From NCBI GenBank assembly GCA_017473345.1, contig JAFULL010000015.1, positions 1-45,384 of the forward strand: DNA of 45,384 bases, given 5' to 3'. The DNA comes from Clostridia bacterium (lineage in GTDB: Bacteria > Bacillota > Clostridia > Christensenellales > Aristaeellaceae). This document shows, one piece after another, positions 7,221 to 45,384 of this stretch; within the stretch, counting starts at the first letter, position 1; the number at the start of each line of letters is the position of its first letter. Position numbers and translations under genes: made by a program. Below the pieces are notes generated by a model, which had not been told where the DNA came from, made no database searches, and saw nothing but the letters and a program-made list of their open reading frames with translations.

Positions 7221-7249
7221 TTGATTTTCCGCTGCAAGTAGTGTATATT
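7221..7249 (+). promoter_or_regulatory. Promoter of the glycine-riboswitch transporter gene
   Basis: -35 TTGATT (7221-7226), 17-bp spacer, -10 TATATT (7244-7249). It lies just upstream of the glycine riboswitch. Confidence 0.75.
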
Positions 7250-7280
7250 GATTCGGCAACTTAATACTCGACAAGTGAAG

Positions 7281-7446
7281 TTCTTAGGGGAATGGCCTTG
7301 TGCCTACCGAAGGAGTAAAACTCTCAGGTGCCTGATATCAGGTGGGGACTAAGAATGGATGTAGCTCTGGAGAATCTCAGTAAATGAGTACCGAAGGTGA
7401 AAGGCAGCTGCTGCCGAATCTCTCAGGTAAAAGGACAGAGTGAGAT
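7281..7446 (+). ncRNA. Tandem glycine riboswitch
   Basis: Two consecutive glycine aptamers. Aptamer 1 is closed by TTCTTAG (7281-7287) with CTAAGAA (7349-7355) and contains TACCGAAGGAGTAAAACTCT followed by CAGGTG. Aptamer 2 is closed by CTCTG (7365-7369) with CAGAG (7436-7440) and contains GTACCGAAGGTGAAAGGCAG and the class-defining CTCTCAGGTAAAAGGACAGA. The tandem arrangement with a short linker is the classical cooperative form. It precedes a sodium:amino-acid symporter, a known target class of this riboswitch. Confidence 0.95.
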
Positions 7447-7493
7447 ATGACCTCTACAATGTGTAGGGGGATTCTCATTTGTATCGCTTTATT

Positions 7494-7521
7494 CGCCGGA
7501 GCATTTGCGTCCGGCGTTTTT
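7494..7521 (+). terminator. Terminator in the glycine riboswitch leader
   Basis: A 7-bp stem, CGCCGGA (7494-7500) with TCCGGCG (7510-7516), followed by TTTTT, about 30 bp before the ATG of the symporter. A further hairpin (about 7441-7477) lies between aptamer 2 and this stem and may act as the switching element. I could not decide from the sequence whether glycine turns the gene on or off. Confidence 0.75.
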
Positions 7522-7550
7522 GTTTGTCGAAAAGAAATGAGGAGATACAA

Positions 7551-8936
7551 ATGGAAGCTGTATTAACCAATGTTGTAACCGTCATTAACGATCTGCTCTG
7601 GAACAAGTGGCTTCTCCTGCTGTTCCTTCTGTTGGGAAGCGGTGTGTTTTTTTCCTTCCGCACCAGGTTTGTTCAGGTGAGAAAGTTCAGAGAGGGCCTG
7701 CGTCTTGTCTTTGGCAACATCAGCCTGAGAGGTAAAAAAGCGGGCAAGGACGGCATGAGTTCCTTCCAGGCTCTGGCTACGGCTATTGCTGCTCAGGTTG
7801 GTACAGGCAACATTGCCGGCTGTGCTACTGCGTTGGTGTCCGGTGGCCCTGGAGCCGTGTTCTGGATGTGGGTTTCTGCTTTTTTCGGTATGGCTACCAT
7901 CTATGGAGAAGCGGTGCTTGCGCAGCGCTTTAAGAAGGTTGGCAAGGATGGCGAAGTTTTGGGCGGTCCCATCTACTATATCAAGGCAGCTTTTAAAGGA
8001 AAGTTTGGTTCGTTCCTTGCAGTATTCTTTGGCGTTGCCATTATTTTGGCGCTTGGCTTCATGGGCAACATGGTGCAGTCCAACTCCATCGGCGAAGCTT
8101 TCTACACCGCATTTGGTATTCCGAAGCTTTGGACTGGTATTGCAGTAGCCGCATTCTCTGCATTCATCTTTCTGGGCAGCGTCAAGCGCCTTGCCGCCAT
8201 CACTGAGAAGCTTGTTCCTCTGATGGCCGTGTTCTATATTGTAGGCTCTGTGGTATTGATCTTTATGAATTACCAGAACATTCTGCCTGCGTTCAAATCA
8301 ATTTTTGTTGGCGCTTTCAATCCGCAGGCTGTCATGGGCGGCGCTTTGGGCATCGGCATCAAAGAGGCCATGCGCTTCGGCGTCGCGCGCGGCTTGTTCT
8401 CCAATGAGGCTGGTATGGGTTCCACGCCTCATGCTCATGCGCTGGCCAAGGTGAACAAGCCCCAGGATCAGGGCGCTGTTGCCATGATCGGCGTATTCAT
8501 TGATACCTTTATCGTATTGACGATGACGGCTCTGGTGATTCTGACCTCTGGTATGCTGGGCACCACCGGTGCTGATGGAATGATGCTGGACGGCACCGCA
8601 CTGGCACAAGCTGCCTTTACGCACTCCTTTGGAGCTTTCGGTAATGCCTTCGTGGCGATTTGCCTGCTGTTCTTTGCCTTCTCTACCATTATTGGCTGGT
8701 ACTTCTTTGGTGAGAGCAATGTAAAAGCCCTGTTCAAAGGCAGCAAGGTCGCCCGGGTAGTGTATGGAATCATTGCGCTTGCATTCATCGTCATGGGCTC
8801 CTTCCAGAAGGTTTCTCTGGTATGGGATATGTCCGATATGTTTAATGGTTTGATGGTCATTCCCAATCTGCTGGCGGTTATCGCGCTGAGTGGAATTGTG
8901 GCCAAGTTTTCTAAAGACGATCATTTTAGGGGATGA
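7551..8936 (+). CDS. AGCS-family sodium:alanine/glycine symporter
   Basis: Inner-membrane Na+-coupled transporter of small neutral amino acids. The start is the ATG at 7551 (MEAVLTNVVTV), with GAGGAGA upstream and lying just after the leader terminator, giving 461 residues. Family hallmarks are FRTRFVQVRKF after the first membrane segment, SSFQALATAIAAQVGTGNIA (the conserved Na+/substrate region) and ARGLFSNEAGMGSTPHAHA. About ten to eleven hydrophobic segments are visible. The glycine riboswitch makes glycine (or alanine) the most likely substrate. Confidence 0.93.
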   Translation: MEAVLTNVVTVINDLLWNKWLLLLFLLLGSGVFFSFRTRFVQVRKFREGLRLVFGNISLRGKKAGKDGMSSFQALATAIAAQVGTGNIAGCATALVSGGPGAVFWMWVSAFFGMATIYGEAVLAQRFKKVGKDGEVLGGPIYYIKAAFKGKFGSFLAVFFGVAIILALGFMGNMVQSNSIGEAFYTAFGIPKLWTGIAVAAFSAFIFLGSVKRLAAITEKLVPLMAVFYIVGSVVLIFMNYQNILPAFKSIFVGAFNPQAVMGGALGIGIKEAMRFGVARGLFSNEAGMGSTPHAHALAKVNKPQDQGAVAMIGVFIDTFIVLTMTALVILTSGMLGTTGADGMMLDGTALAQAAFTHSFGAFGNAFVAICLLFFAFSTIIGWYFFGESNVKALFKGSKVARVVYGIIALAFIVMGSFQKVSLVWDMSDMFNGLMVIPNLLAVIALSGIVAKFSKDDHFRG

Positions 8937-39631: not shown

Positions 39632-40492
39632 ATGCTCATCGGACAGTTCTTTGGTACCAGCGCGGCGGAGGGCATTCCCGCCCCGTTTTGCCAGTGCGAG
39701 GTGTGCCGGCAGGCGCGGGAAAAAAAGGGCGTTTACCGCCGCAGACGTTCGTGCTTTCGGCTGAGTGACAAGATCATGCTGGATCTGGGAGCGGATGCGG
39801 TGAGCCAGTGCGAGGAATACGGCGATATCACGGCGGTCGATCATGTGCTGATCACGCACACACACGACGACCATCTCAATCCTCACATGATGATGGAGGC
39901 CTTCTGGAGCCGAAAGGACCGAGACGGCCCGCTGCACTATTACTTCACGGATCAGGCCTTTGATATGGTGCGGCACTGGCGCGAAAACGAGTGGATCCTC
40001 AAGGGAAAGGTGCCTGAATGGGAGCACGACGGCGTGGTGGCGTTTCATCAGCTGCATTACGGGCAGCGCACGCAGGTGGAGGACGTGTTCGTCACACCCT
40101 TCCGCGGCAACCACAAGGGCAATGTGGGGGAGAATACCGCGCTGTATCTGATCGAACTGCCGGATGGGCGCAGCCTGTTTTACGGGCTGGACAGCGGACG
40201 CTATCTTCCTGAAACCATTGAGGCGCTCAGGGAGCACCGCATCGACCTGTTCATCAGCGAATGCACTGCGGGCGCAAGCACCATCAGCTATCCCGGAACC
40301 CACATGGGCATTCGGGACGTGTGCGACCTGACCAACACGCTCTACCGTCAGGGCACGCTTCATGACGACAGCACCGTGTGGCTTACGCACATTAACCACA
40401 GAACCGGGCATGACCAGATGCTTAAAGCCGCCGCAAGCATGCCCTTCCCTGTAAAGACGGTCGTGGCTTTTGACGGTCTGCGCATTTTGTGA
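39632..40492 (+). CDS. MBL-fold metallo-hydrolase, PhnP-like
   Basis: A 286-residue metallo-beta-lactamase-fold hydrolase. The metal motif HTHDDH (in LITHTHDDHLNPH, about 75-87) is complete. An N-terminal Cys cluster CQCEVCRQAR (about 22-31) resembles the zinc-binding loop of PhnP phosphodiesterases (CxCxxC). Later metal ligands appear as FRGNHKG and YGLDSGRY. PhnP acts on cyclic ribose phosphates, so a cyclic or phosphodiester sugar substrate is conceivable, but the rest of a phosphonate pathway is absent here. AAAGGAG ribosome site, 14 bp after the DUF1349 gene. Confidence 0.85.
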   Translation: MLIGQFFGTSAAEGIPAPFCQCEVCRQAREKKGVYRRRRSCFRLSDKIMLDLGADAVSQCEEYGDITAVDHVLITHTHDDHLNPHMMMEAFWSRKDRDGPLHYYFTDQAFDMVRHWRENEWILKGKVPEWEHDGVVAFHQLHYGQRTQVEDVFVTPFRGNHKGNVGENTALYLIELPDGRSLFYGLDSGRYLPETIEALREHRIDLFISECTAGASTISYPGTHMGIRDVCDLTNTLYRQGTLHDDSTVWLTHINHRTGHDQMLKAAASMPFPVKTVVAFDGLRIL

Positions 40493-40495
40493 ATA

Positions 40496-40530
40496 CATCC
40501 CCCTCCGTTTCAGGAGGGGGATGCTGTTTT
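40496..40530. terminator. Terminator between convergent genes
   Basis: Perfect 11-bp stem (CATCCCCCTCC at 40496-40506 with 40513-40523) followed by CTGTTTT on the plus strand. It sits between the metallo-hydrolase and the minus-strand gene. Confidence 0.85.
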
Positions 40531-42463
40531 ATTGGACTTTTACATAGCGCAGCGACATGGCAGGAACGCTGAGTTCAGCAAGCGATTCGCCGTTGAAGGC
40601 GTCATACATGCCGCCGGGTGCGTCAAGTTGGACATCCTCTGCATCGTCCAGCGAGGGGTTGAGCAGCGCGACCAGCGTATCTGTATCCCCCTTCAGCACG
40701 ATGGGCATCACGTTCAGGCCGCCGGAGACTGCCCATGTGGGCTTTTCGCGCAGGAGCCACTGCACGATGGCGCGCACCTGCCCGGCACGGCATTTGTACA
40801 GCCAGTTGCGGTCGGGCACGATGGCGGAGGCAAAGGTGCATATGCGCGCGCCAAATTCGTTTTCATACAGCCACACGGCGGGTGCAAAGGGTTTTTTGGC
40901 GCAGTCGATGAAGTGCGACGCAGCCAGCGCGCCTTCACAGGGCTCAAACAGCACAGGCATGTTGCGCTCGTCGCCCACATTGCGGCCAAAGGCGGCTACA
41001 TACTGTCCGGGACAGCCGCCGTCAAAGCCGGGCACATCAAAGCATTCATAGCAGGCCTGATTCAGCCGGCGCGGGTTGTGCAGGCCGATCTGTGCGCCAA
41101 AGCCGCGGGTGCACAGCGCGATGGCGGCGTACATGTCCAGCATCAGCGGCTTGTGCAGCAGGCGCTGGATGTCTTCATCGGTCAGGCAGTTGACCATGTC
41201 GCCGTCGATGAAGTTGATATCGCCCTCGCCAAAAGCTACCGGCACGCCCATGCGCGCCATCACGGCGGCGGGATCAGCGATGGTGGAATGAGGGTACAGC
41301 CCGCGCACGGCGCCTGTGCGGTCGTCGATATGGCGCGAGATATCCCAGCTCCACAGAAAGTGAACGCCCTGCGGCGTGCGGCCCTGACGCAAAGCCTGCA
41401 CCTGATCGTACAATGCGCGGCGCGTGCGCAGCATGTCGGCGTATTCCTGACAGTAGGTAAACGGCGTTTCAAAATGGTCAAACAGGTTGAGCGTGGCCTG
41501 TGTGCATCCGGCCAGCGCGTGCAGCTGAATGTGCAGATCGGTCTGGCGCACGCTCTTGCTCATCACCGTGCGGGGGTAGGAATCCACCTCGCTTACGGCA
41601 AACAGCTCGCCCGGGATGGCGCTGAGCGACCGGGCGGTGCCCAGATACATATTGCACACGCCGTCCAGCAGCACGTCGGAATAGGCGCCGCCGGCCGGGC
41701 GGGCAAGCATCGTGCGGCCTTCGCCGGCAAAGGTCTGCAGAAGGCGCGGCAGATCGCGGCCCTGATAGCTGCTGGATGCATTGGAGCAGCACATCAGGCC
41801 GATCTGCACGTCCGGATCCACCGCGTGCACGGCCTGTTCCACCATGCGGCCTGTCTGCAGCTGGTTTTCAAAATTGACGTCCATCCATGCCTGACGGATG
41901 CGCAGGTCGTCCGGGCTGTTGCCGCATACATGGGCGCGCAGGGTTTCGGGGGTGAGCTCTACGCCGCAGCGGCGGGACGTGGCCTTCACGTGCAGGTCAC
42001 AGAAACACCCAGCCCTGCCCTGAAAATGATTGTCCGACCGGAAGTCGTCATCCAGATACAGCCGTGCAAAGCCCGCGCGGGCGCAGTCGGCGCACACGCG
42101 GCTGATGTAGCGCTGCCAGGCGGGGTCCATGCCGCAGGGAGCGGCGGGCGAAGGCTGCAGATCATCGCCCACGAAACGCGAAAAAGAGGGCATGTTTTCG
42201 ACGTAGCCCTCATAGTGGCCCATGCTCACCTTGATGTACATCGACGGAATAAGCCCCTCCGCCTTGAGAATGGGCACGATCTCGCAGTAGGCGTCGGCTA
42301 CGCGGTGAAAAAAATCCTCGCTTTGCACGACGGTGGCGATATGGTAGCTTTCCTCGCTGAGAAGCACTTCGTCGATATGCGCTTCATGGCAGAAGCGGAT
42401 GAGCTCCGGCAGGAAGGAACGCCATGTGTCCGGATGGATATTCGTACGCAGACCGTATTGCAT
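40529..42463 (-). CDS. Large uncharacterised protein, glycosidase-like TIM barrel suspected
   Basis: A 644-residue cytoplasmic protein I cannot assign to a named family. Start ATG at 42463 (MQYGLRTNIHPDTWRSFLPE) with GGAGGGG upstream. The N-terminal half (RFCHEAHIDEVLLSEESYHI, FARLYLDDDFRSDNHF) has the rhythm of a (beta/alpha)8 glycoside hydrolase. The LYLDDDFR segment is a candidate acidic active site. The middle has ALAGCTQATLNLFDHFETPF and WSWDISRHIDDRTG, followed by a region GVPVAFGEGDINFIDGDM resembling a glutaminase-like or beta-galactosidase trimerisation domain. The C-terminus ends as a beta sandwich (LVALLNPSLDDAEDVQLDAP). GH42-like architecture is the best guess. Confidence 0.6.
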   Translation of the reverse strand: MQYGLRTNIHPDTWRSFLPELIRFCHEAHIDEVLLSEESYHIATVVQSEDFFHRVADAYCEIVPILKAEGLIPSMYIKVSMGHYEGYVENMPSFSRFVGDDLQPSPAAPCGMDPAWQRYISRVCADCARAGFARLYLDDDFRSDNHFQGRAGCFCDLHVKATSRRCGVELTPETLRAHVCGNSPDDLRIRQAWMDVNFENQLQTGRMVEQAVHAVDPDVQIGLMCCSNASSSYQGRDLPRLLQTFAGEGRTMLARPAGGAYSDVLLDGVCNMYLGTARSLSAIPGELFAVSEVDSYPRTVMSKSVRQTDLHIQLHALAGCTQATLNLFDHFETPFTYCQEYADMLRTRRALYDQVQALRQGRTPQGVHFLWSWDISRHIDDRTGAVRGLYPHSTIADPAAVMARMGVPVAFGEGDINFIDGDMVNCLTDEDIQRLLHKPLMLDMYAAIALCTRGFGAQIGLHNPRRLNQACYECFDVPGFDGGCPGQYVAAFGRNVGDERNMPVLFEPCEGALAASHFIDCAKKPFAPAVWLYENEFGARICTFASAIVPDRNWLYKCRAGQVRAIVQWLLREKPTWAVSGGLNVMPIVLKGDTDTLVALLNPSLDDAEDVQLDAPGGMYDAFNGESLAELSVPAMSLRYVKVQ

Positions 42464-42584
42464 CAAACCCCTCCAGTGAATATGCTGCTTTTATGATACA
42501 ACCATTATAAATTCGCATGCCTTTGAAATCCACAAAAAAGCAAAAGGAAACATCAAAAATCGTCCTTTTTTCAAACTCTACTTT

Positions 42585-42613
42585 TTGTGGGTGTTCACGG
42601 GGCGGGTTATGCT
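42585..42613 (+). promoter_or_regulatory. Promoter of the XRE/superoxide-reductase-like fusion gene
   Basis: -35 TTGTGG (42585-42590), 17-bp spacer, -10 TATGCT (42608-42613). GGAGGTGA follows, 6-7 bp before the ATG. On the opposite strand a TATAAT near 42509 may serve the minus-strand gene, without a good -35. Confidence 0.6.
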
Positions 42614-42640
42614 TTATGATGGTATCGGAGGTGACGAACC

Positions 42641-43312
42641 ATGAATCAGTATGTGACCGGCGCGGTCATCCGGGAGCTTCGCGAAAAAAAAGGCATGACG
42701 CAGGCCGAACTGGCCCAGCGGCTGTTTGTGTCCGACAAAACGGTGTCCAAGTGGGAAAACGGGAAGGGCTATCCGGATATTTCTTTGCTCGATCCCATTG
42801 CCAAGCTGTTTGGCGTGTCCATCGCCGAACTGGTCAGCGGCGAAGTGGTGAGCAACGTCAATGTGTCGGGCAATATGCTCAGGTCCAAGTTTTATGTGTG
42901 CCCGATGTGCGGCAATGTGATCCACACCATGGGTGAGGCGGCCATCAGCTGCCACGGCGTGCAGCTGACCCCTGCCCAGCCGGAGGAGACCGACGAAAAC
43001 CACATGATCTTCGTTGAAGGCGTGGAGGACGAGTATTATGTGCGCATTGAGCATGACATGACCAAAACGCATTATATTTCCTTCATCGCGGCCCTTTCGC
43101 CGGACCGGCTGCAGCTGGTGAAGCTGTACCCTGAGGGGAATGCCGAGGCGCGTTTTCAGGTGCGCGGTGTAAAGCAGCTGTTTTTTTACTGCAACCGCGA
43201 CGGATTGTTCCGCCTGAATGTGAAGCCGTCCATCGATGCAAGGCACGCATCCTATGACGACACGGCCCAAAGGCGTGCGCTGGAGCAGACGGCCGCCAAA
43301 ATTTTTGGATAA
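42641..43312 (+). CDS. XRE-family HTH fused to desulfoferrodoxin/superoxide-reductase-like domain
   Basis: A 223-residue protein in three parts. An XRE helix-turn-helix spans about 6-66 (MTQAELAQRLFVSDKTVSKW). A small metal-ribbon resembling desulforedoxin (83-106) has C87, C90, C104 and His105 where a fourth Cys is usual. A superoxide-reductase-like domain (117-195) follows. Expected iron-centre residues there: ENH with Glu119/His121, H138-x5-H144 in EHDMTKTHYISF, and Cys184 in YCNRDGLF. The last His (normally CxxH) is Asp187. It may be a redox- or metal-sensing repressor evolved from the enzyme. Monocistronic, with its own promoter and terminator. Confidence 0.85.
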   Translation: MNQYVTGAVIRELREKKGMTQAELAQRLFVSDKTVSKWENGKGYPDISLLDPIAKLFGVSIAELVSGEVVSNVNVSGNMLRSKFYVCPMCGNVIHTMGEAAISCHGVQLTPAQPEETDENHMIFVEGVEDEYYVRIEHDMTKTHYISFIAALSPDRLQLVKLYPEGNAEARFQVRGVKQLFFYCNRDGLFRLNVKPSIDARHASYDDTAQRRALEQTAAKIFG

Positions 43313-43313
43313 A

Positions 43314-43352
43314 GCAACACGCATCAGCCAGTGTGAGGCTGATGCGTGTTGC
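43314..43352. terminator. Bidirectional hairpin terminator
   Basis: Perfect 16-bp stem (43314-43329 with 43337-43352) followed by TTGTTG. It lies between the XRE fusion gene and the convergent small secreted-protein gene. Confidence 0.8.
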
Positions 43353-43386
43353 TTGTTGTATGGAAAACGCCCGGCCCAGCCGGTGA

Positions 43387-43962
43387 CTATTTGGTGCCGG
43401 GTACGAAGGTGATCAGCAGTGTTTCCATGGCTGCCAGCGCTTCTTCGGTCAGGGGGACATTTTCCAGATAGTACACGCCATAGTTGCCGCTTGATGCGTA
43501 GCACAGCGCCACGAAAATACCCTGTTCCATGTTTTCGGTCTCGTAGATATACAGCAGGGAAACGGCGCGGCTTTCGTCGATCTCAATCGCGGTAGCGGTA
43601 TAGGTGGGGTCGGTGAAGTCGGGCGCAAAGCTTGCCAATGCAGCATTGGCAAGGGCGTTGATGTGGTCCTGCAGGGAGCTGCCTTCCGGGAACTGACTGG
43701 GCCGCATGCCGTTCATGGTGAGCAGCACGCCCGACAGGGGAGATTCGCTCATGCACATGTACTGGCAGTAGCCGATGGTGTTCATCATTTCTTCCACCTG
43801 TTCCTGCGTGATGTTGGTGGAGGTGAAGTTGTAAAACAGGTCGTCAGTGGTAAGGTAACCGGCGATCTCGTTGCCAAGTGCCAGGGTGGTCTGGGCGGCG
43901 CAGGCTGGTATGCACAGGCATACCAGCACAAGGATCAGCGCAGCGATGCGTGTGATTTTCAT
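43387..43962 (-). CDS. Small secreted or lipoprotein of unknown function
   Basis: A 191-residue protein. Start at 43962 (MKITRIAALILVLVCLCIPA) with GGAGG upstream. Residues 1 to about 21 form a signal peptide. The site may be type I (ACAAQ) or a weak lipobox at IPAC. The mature part is acidic, with no motif I recognise (ITQEQVEEMMNTIGYCQYMC; IEIDESRAVSLLYIYETE; LTEEALAAMETLLITFVPG). The pattern resembles the small exported stress/turnover proteins common in gut Clostridia, but I cannot name a family. Confidence 0.75.
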   Translation of the reverse strand: MKITRIAALILVLVCLCIPACAAQTTLALGNEIAGYLTTDDLFYNFTSTNITQEQVEEMMNTIGYCQYMCMSESPLSGVLLTMNGMRPSQFPEGSSLQDHINALANAALASFAPDFTDPTYTATAIEIDESRAVSLLYIYETENMEQGIFVALCYASSGNYGVYYLENVPLTEEALAAMETLLITFVPGTK

Positions 43963-44068
43963 GATGAAGGCCTCCTGAAGGTAAACTGTATACATAAAAT
44001 AGCATATTTATTGGAAGAAAACAATGCAAACGTATCAAAACAGCCGCAAGAGAAAGCTTGTTAAATAC

Positions 44069-44157: not shown

Positions 44158-45384
44158 ATGAAGAAGATTCTTGCTCTGGTCATGGCGCTGCTGATGATGC
44201 TGTCCAGCTTCGCCTATGCCGAAGGCATGACCCCCGGCACCTACGAAGTGGCTGCCAAGGGTTTCCACGGCGACGTGAAGCTCGCTGTGACCGTCGACGC
44301 TGAGAAGATCACCGCCATCGAAGTGATCGAGCACAGCGAGACCGAAGGCATCGGCTCTGTGGCCCTGCCCCAGCTGGTTGAGGCCGTGCTGGCCAGCCAG
44401 ACCATCGGCGTTGACTCCGTGTCCGGCGCCACCATCACCTCTGACGCCTTCAAGGCTGCTGTGACCGACGCTCTCACCCAGGCCGGTGCGGACATGGAAA
44501 AGATGACCGCCGCCGTCGTCAAGGGCGAGCTGGTTGAAGAAGCCCTCGAGGCTGACATCGTTGTTGTGGGCGGCGGCGCTGCCGGCCTCACTGCTGGCAT
44601 CAAGGCCCTGCAGAACGGCGCCAGCGTCATCCTGCTGGAAAAGACCGGCATGACCGGCGGTGCTTCCGCCATGGCCGGCGCCGGCACCAAGGCCACCGGT
44701 TCCAAGTGGTCCATCGAGTCCGGCAGCACCGAGACTGCTGAGGACTTCATCGCTCAGATCACCACCAACGGCCACAACAAGAACCATATGCCCACCGTTG
44801 AAAACTTCGCCAAGACCCTGGGCACCGCCTTTGACTGGCTGGTCGCCGAGGATGGCGCTGCTGTTCCCTACGTCAAGAAGGACGGCCCTTCCGCCTCTTT
44901 CTCCGGCGAAGGCCGCGGTGCCGGCGTTGTGAAGAACCTGACTGCCAAGTTCGAGGCTGAAGGCGGCAAGCTGATGCTGTCTACCCCCGCCACCGAGCTG
45001 GTCATCGACAACGGCGCTGTTGTGGGCGTGAAGGCTGAAGGCAACGGCAAGGCTTACACCATCAATGCCAAGGCTGTCATCCTGGCCACCGGCGGCTACG
45101 GCGCCAACAAGGACCTGGTGCCCGACGAGTACGAAGTGTTCGTGTACGCCGGCCACGCCGGTGCTGAAGGCGACGCCATCAAGATGGTTGAGCCCCTCAA
45201 CGCCGACCTGATCTCCATGGAACTGATCAACACCCAGCCCAACTCCATGGTGCTGCCCAGCGGCCTGGGCCAGTACTGCAACCCCGGCGTGAGCAAGGCT
45301 TATGCTGCCGGCGGCTTCATGGTCAACCAGAACGGCGAGCGCTTCGTCAACGAAGTGGCCAGCGCCTGGGACATCATGCAGGAA
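44158..45384 (+). CDS. Exported FMN-binding / FAD-dependent oxidoreductase (fumarate-reductase-like), partial
   Basis: The first 409 residues are visible; the gene runs off the right edge. Signal peptide 1-21 (FAYA before EGM). An FMN-binding domain at about 24-100 has the ApbE flavinylation motif SGATITS (89-95, Thr92 the likely covalent FMN site). An FAD_binding_2 domain starts at about 132 (ADIVVVGGGAAGLTAGIKAL), with LEKTGMTGGASAMAGAGTKA and VILATGGYGANKDL. This is the layout of extracytoplasmic flavin-based reductases (urocanate/fumarate/acrylate-type) used in anaerobic electron disposal. The natural acceptor cannot be told because the catalytic region is cut. GAGGAGG site before the ATG; strong codon bias. 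Confidence 0.92.
   Translation, partial: MKKILALVMALLMMLSSFAYAEGMTPGTYEVAAKGFHGDVKLAVTVDAEKITAIEVIEHSETEGIGSVALPQLVEAVLASQTIGVDSVSGATITSDAFKAAVTDALTQAGADMEKMTAAVVKGELVEEALEADIVVVGGGAAGLTAGIKALQNGASVILLEKTGMTGGASAMAGAGTKATGSKWSIESGSTETAEDFIAQITTNGHNKNHMPTVENFAKTLGTAFDWLVAEDGAAVPYVKKDGPSASFSGEGRGAGVVKNLTAKFEAEGGKLMLSTPATELVIDNGAVVGVKAEGNGKAYTINAKAVILATGGYGANKDLVPDEYEVFVYAGHAGAEGDAIKMVEPLNADLISMELINTQPNSMVLPSGLGQYCNPGVSKAYAAGGFMVNQNGERFVNEVASAWDIMQE

Follow-up and report, generated by a model that had tools for sequence, protein, structure and literature searches.

A putative Xre-type autoregulator with a remodelled superoxide reductase domain in Clostridia

What is the function of a protein in which an HTH domain is fused to a superoxide reductase (SOR)-like module with two altered metal sites? 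This question is raised by one gene of the window (the whole stretch of 45,384 nucleotides analysed, from a Clostridia bacterium). SORs are iron enzymes of anaerobes, and the preliminary description had viewed this protein as an oxygen-defence enzyme converted into a DNA-binding sensor of superoxide, iron or redox state. The gene and its parts are as follows:

42627-42633, + strand: ribosome-binding site GGAGGTG (from the sequence)
42641-43312, + strand: HTH-Dx-SOR-like protein of 223 aa, ATG start (ORF and profile matches)
42668-42832, + strand: Xre/Cro-C1 type HTH, residues 10-64 (PF01381, E 7.5e-17)
42884-42958, + strand: desulforedoxin-like ribbon, residues 82-106, with C87, C90, C104 and H105 (TIGR00320 and alignment)
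42986-43213, + strand: SOR-like domain, residues 116-191, with H121, H138, H144, C184 and D187 (TIGR00320, 2ji2 match and alignment)
43214-43309, + strand: C-terminal tail, residues 192-223 (alignment)
43312-43354, + strand: 18-pair hairpin directly 3' of the stop, a probable (bidirectional) terminator before the convergent gene (folding)

A longer antisense ORF (42614-43504, - strand, 296 aa) overlaps this gene and is taken as spurious, since the homologs match the sense frame. The hairpin is stable (-34.9 kcal/mol, z -8.05), its tail is only TGTTGT, and it was not among the matches of a consensus terminator scan. The 5' gene is divergent and the 3' gene is convergent; the neighbours at 40529-42466 (- strand, 645 aa) and 43387-43995 (- strand, 202 aa) have no Pfam match at E 0.001. 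Further away, 39632-40492 (+ strand) encodes a beta-lactamase-superfamily fold protein (PF12706), and 44158-45384 (+ strand), which runs off the window end, carries FMN_bind and FAD_binding_2 domains, judging from which it is a flavocytochrome/fumarate-reductase-like flavoprotein.

The SOR-derived part is recognizable and remote. TIGR00320 matches residues 82-191 (E 2.6e-9) with 37.3 bits, far under the curated cut-off of 146.9, and PF01880 (E 0.014) reaches 16.3 bits, under its cut-off of 22.2 bits, while the desulfoferrodoxin structure 2ji2 matches at E 4.2e-7. In PMC11980386, the ribbon is written C(xx)C(x)15CC and the SOR site (E)(K)H(x)19-27H(x)5H(x)40-63C(x)2H. The window protein reads H121-x16-H138-x5-H144-x39-C184-x2-D187, so that its H-x16-H and H-x39-C spacings are shorter than the published x19-27 and x40-63, and the last SOR histidine is replaced by Asp187; instead of the four His and one Cys of centre II, three His and the Cys are kept. 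In the ribbon (C87-x2-C90-x13-C104-H105), His105 replaces the fourth desulforedoxin cysteine. When aligned to 2ji2, whose residue numbers were counted by hand from the alignment, E119, H121, H138, H144, C184 and D187 stand opposite E47, H49, H69, H75, C116 and H119. The residues named in the preliminary description (E119, H121, H138, H144 and C184 kept, Asp187 in place of His) all read correctly in the ORF, and the Cys-to-His change that it reported in the ribbon is borne out by C104-H105; it had missed that the lysine of the EKH motif is replaced by Asn120.

Are these altered residues accidents of one gene? They are more than chance, since they are conserved in homologs. The survey covered the window's order, in which 36 of 297 genomes have a relative reaching into the SOR part, and a named-genome sample (mostly Lachnospiraceae and other Clostridia, with isolates of cultured Butyrivibrio and further Lachnospiraceae among them) made of the best 80 of 591 relatives, so that the counts lean toward near kin of the window protein. 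The residue counts omit L021, which has an internal stop, and L066, the frame of which differs at the end. Two relatives, L101 and L106, lie on contigs labelled as Treponema metagenome-assembled genomes, through transfer or mis-binning. Among 108 sampled rows of the alignment, position 105 is His in 52 and Asn in 1 (these 53 rows being the H105 clade) and Cys in 55 (the C105 type). Position 187 is Asp in 50, Ser in 1, Glu in 1 and His in 1 of the H105-clade rows, versus His in 49, Asp in 5 and Glu in 1 of the C105-type rows. The 105/187 pairs are 49 H/D, 49 C/H and 5 C/D, with C/E, H/S, H/E, H/H and N/D found once each; L074 and L210 have His105 but not Asp187, and 5 of the 108 rows have Asp187 but not His105. 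The 53 H105-clade rows group together in the tree (support 91); when the ligand columns are removed, 49 of them still group (support 96) and the other four rows of that part fall unplaced. The His105/Asp187 combination marks essentially one clade (53 of the 108 sampled rows). Asp187 is not a random defect, because it is conserved within its clade; whether it is conserved had been put forward as a check, and the answer is that it is kept in 50 of 53 clade rows, is not unique to the window protein and also arose outside the clade. The pair counts are striking, but joint evolution of positions 105 and 187 was rejected: nearly all pairs come from one origin and the tree contains only one independent pair, so that nothing beyond shared ancestry is demonstrated.

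The two metal sites have different histories. Over 127 rows, the ribbon cysteines 87, 90 and 104 and the HTH residue W38 are invariant (127/127 each), and the SOR ligands are kept in 116 (H121), 120 (H144) and 120 (C184). The Y163-P164-E165 motif is family-specific, its tyrosine being present in 127/127 rows and in none of the eight residue kinds listed for stand-alone SORs. The C-terminal tail (192-223) recurs in most of the near relatives that belong to the H105 clade; the sampled C105-type proteins lack it. The ribbon being the most conserved metal site, and Cys3His ligand sets being typical of zinc sites, one could imagine that it holds a structural zinc, and that the second centre, which varies and is fully lost in 7 rows, is empty or relaxed in a domain that serves to hold the HTH as a dimer or to bind some other ligand. 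We find this improbable, as the H105 clade keeps H121, H138, H144 and C184 in 53/53 rows and D187 in 50/53, which is too strict for an unused site.

The rows without the SOR site came from a search of 81 genomes belonging to the same family as G286, which yielded 22 full-length loci. They form a clade of seven (L025, L212, L213, L215, L216, L218 and L219; support 90), in which H121 is changed to E, Q or K, H144 to D, C184 to S or D, and residue 187 to E, R, D or Q. All seven keep the HTH, the four ribbon cysteines and the YPE motif, and the upstream site described below scores above 12 in six of them and 10.5 in L215. In four other relatives (L022, L028, L214 and L217), H121 is the only ligand lost.

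The DNA upstream of the gene holds the site through which it very probably, as judged from sequence, controls its own production:

42574-42597, + strand: putative autoregulatory operator AACTCTACTTTTTGTGGGTGTTCA, palindrome CTAC-N5-GTGG with a degenerate right half (matrix score and register)
42592-42597, + strand: -35 position TGTTCA, a poor match that overlaps the operator end (register from 100 aligned promoters)
42615-42620, + strand: -10 box TATGAT (23 nt after operator T18)

The family consensus of the operator is ACTCTAC-KNWS-CGTAGGT, and its palindrome reads TCTAC-N4-CGTAGGT. When the position weight matrix is scored on its own training set, sites above 12 occur in 100 of 106 family upstream regions versus 0 of 530 shuffles, and the operator is found in 79 of 80 named-genome loci (best 80 of 591; the exception is a locus beginning at the gene) and in 0 of 30 stand-alone SOR loci. 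The 106 regions omit L020, L063, L087 and L106, of which L063 and L106 do carry sites; no clear site was seen in L009, L024, L026, L214 and L217, and in L051, L054 and L073 the operator lies more than 150 nt upstream. Two tests were held out. First, matrices trained on one ligand type scored above 8 in the other type in 43/51 and 44/52 regions (shuffles 2/255 and 0/260). Second, in a leave-one-out scan, the window operator scored 12.0, the best value on both strands of the 45 kb, the next being 10.5, and none of 2000 shuffles scored as high. It is nevertheless a weak copy, with -2.5 under the matrix trained on C105-type genes alone, and a sigma-70 consensus scan listed no + strand promoter at this place.

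In 82 of 100 family promoters, the distance from operator T18 to the start of the -10 box is exactly 23 nt (3/100 for shuffles). With this fixed spacing, the operator ends on the base that opens the -35, and the operator centre lies near -43. The window operator has the same -10 register as its relatives, its centre falling about 43 nt upstream of the position where transcription should start. An operator over the -35 would suit repression, but an activator would also be compatible with a weak -35 and an operator centred near -43. The operator core is TTTCC in the H105 clade versus GNAGC in the C105 type. The -35 starts with TTG in 4/49 H105-clade versus 36/49 C105-type promoters, counts that ignore kinship, so that a switch to activation in the H105 clade, which the weaker -35 might suggest, is only an idea and was not retained. 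The DNA-binding role proposed in the preliminary description gains support from the HTH and from this conserved, promoter-locked operator at nearly all sampled members.

Another Xre protein might bind here, because sites of this kind can also precede related genes with an HTH only, and the fused HTH would then not be the one that recognises the operator. Similar palindromes (CTAC/CGAC...GTAG/GTCG) indeed precede L224, an HTH-only Xre locus (like sites were seen in 1 of 8 such loci), and L196, an Xre-HTH protein with a membrane segment and Cys pairs. We consider this possibility very improbable: the site stands in the same promoter register at nearly every sampled family gene, and the site-bearing genes span many families and scattered genome places, as autoregulation predicts.

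How far does the regulation reach? In 22 genomes, the exact operator pattern has 19 matches (in 16 genomes), 17 of which lead to the HTH-SOR gene, in one case by way of a preceding flavoprotein-like gene, while the remaining 2 lead to other genes; the reversed pattern gave 3 matches in the same genomes. A stricter pattern has 8 matches in the 297 genomes of the order, 7 of them at the HTH-SOR gene (control, 0). When one mismatch is allowed, the reversed pattern outnumbers the operator pattern in all 14 of 14 genomes, so that there is no excess of sites. A wider regulon was thus not found with the exact pattern in 22 genomes, the stricter one in 297 or one-mismatch sites in 14, and the regulation looks local and self-directed, as there is no one-mismatch excess and exact sites occur almost only at the protein's own gene. 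The two exact matches of G307 (L152 and L159) precede genes resembling GNAT acetyltransferases by eye, and they may be due to chance since the reversed control gave 3 matches. A conserved operon partner was likewise not found among the 80 loci (best 80 of 591): none of the 14 largest neighbour families shown directly adjoins HTH-SOR in more than 2/80 loci, and the downstream gene is on the + strand in 45 and on the - strand in 29 by crude gene calling. A terminator-like hairpin follows the gene in 23/80 loci (2/240 shuffles), so that for most loci the evidence does not establish transcription of the gene by itself. In L073 (about 7239-8588), the operator is followed by a 227 aa flavoprotein-like gene and, 3 nt further, by HTH-SOR, the only such operon noticed.

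A gene that stands alone, with exact sites almost only before itself and metal ligands mostly kept, could also encode an enzyme that mainly scavenges superoxide or binds iron, the HTH merely adjusting its supply. This explanation is unlikely in our estimate; it stays the main rival because no regulon was seen, and it is strongest for the C105 type. Three lines of evidence weigh against it. First, the EKH lysine is present in 0/55 C105-type and 9/53 H105-clade rows, versus 30/30 stand-alone SORs of the order; the latter, which also have C105 and H187 in 30/30, were selected with a pattern containing EKH, yet 30/30 loci passed. The glutamate (Glu119) is kept in 21/55 C105-type and 44/53 H105-clade rows. 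Some archaeal SORs without the lysine or the glutamate are still active, so that the loss of the lysine is not proof of inactivity. Second, the clade of seven lacks the SOR site and keeps everything else. Third, a separate SOR is present in 17/36 order genomes with HTH-SOR (106/297 overall; Fisher p 0.14) and in 13/19 H105-clade genomes, the G313 copy having an internal stop. Conversely, no stand-alone SOR was found in 19/36 of those order genomes, in favour of an enzyme. In the genome from which the window comes, which is 65 percent complete, TIGR00320 matches the HTH-SOR gene only and PF01880 nothing.

From this evidence, we think it somewhat probable that the gene encodes an autoregulatory Xre-type transcription factor, which uses a former class I SOR (ribbon plus SOR domain) as a metal or redox sensor. 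The domains, conserved ligands, operator and its fixed register are read directly in the DNA; we infer that the operator is bound by this protein, that metal is bound and which signal is sensed, and also any preference for repression over activation. The protein, as a dimer, would bind the palindrome near -43 that abuts its own -35 and would set its own level. Metal bound by the ribbon, whose ligands are Cys3His here and Cys4 elsewhere, and by the remodelled SOR centre, with three His, one Cys and one Asp here, would report redox state, superoxide or iron, and the metal state of both would alter DNA binding. The ribbon is presumably needed for function in all types, because it is always kept, and the SOR centre can be retuned or lost, something that catalysis would not allow. 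Counted against a sensor are the SOR ligands, which most family members retain as one would expect of a functional metal site or enzyme, and the little visible output that a pure sensor would have, since no regulon was seen. The conversion of an enzyme, as first described, is supported in part, by the loss of the EKH lysine, the dismantled clade of seven and the separate SOR of 13/19 H105-clade genomes; against it weigh the lack of a defence-gene regulon and the possibility of a self-regulated enzyme, and the fusion class itself was already published in 2011.

A broader proposal, to which we give slightly less than even credence, is that anaerobes built regulators from SOR, each controlling its own single promoter, in which the ribbon is the always-kept sensor and the iron centre was retuned in the window's clade and discarded in another. 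Intact, retuned and dismantled centres behind one operator would illustrate the stepwise change of a defence enzyme into a regulator, and a named DNA site makes the sensor idea directly testable.

What was known already is the HTH-Dx-SOR fusion type; the clade-specific metal sites, the operator and the dismantled clade were found here. In the accessible part of PMC3116461, SORGOdb (2011) lists this fusion class with 19 proteins and files mutated CxxC...CC sets under Atypical-SOR, and the text there on the class describes no operator or function test; our literature search, with most subscription journals outside its reach, returned only this paper as naming the class. The Treponema denticola protein TrtA, as described in the accessible part of PMC12724145, is not a match, being a 104 aa Xre protein without SOR domain. 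The window protein has the domain order of the SORGOdb class (HTH, desulforedoxin, SOR), its N-terminal HTH preceding the Dx-SOR module, but it differs in the ribbon, where His105 breaks the CxxC-x15-CC set, and in the SOR-centre His changed to Asp. Residues 81-192 align with class I SOR/desulfoferrodoxin (Dx-SOR; 2ji2, 1vzg and 1dfx; profile E 3.1e-14), from which the window protein is distinguished by the extra HTH and by the C105 to His, H187 to Asp and Lys120 to Asn changes. With the Xre/Cro-C1 autoregulators (P22 C2, SinR and PezA; profile match), it shares an Xre-type HTH and a conserved palindrome over its own promoter, whereas its sensor would be an SOR-derived metal domain. We call it a variant of the HTH-Dx-SOR architecture that, judging from these likenesses, would work like an Xre autoregulator.
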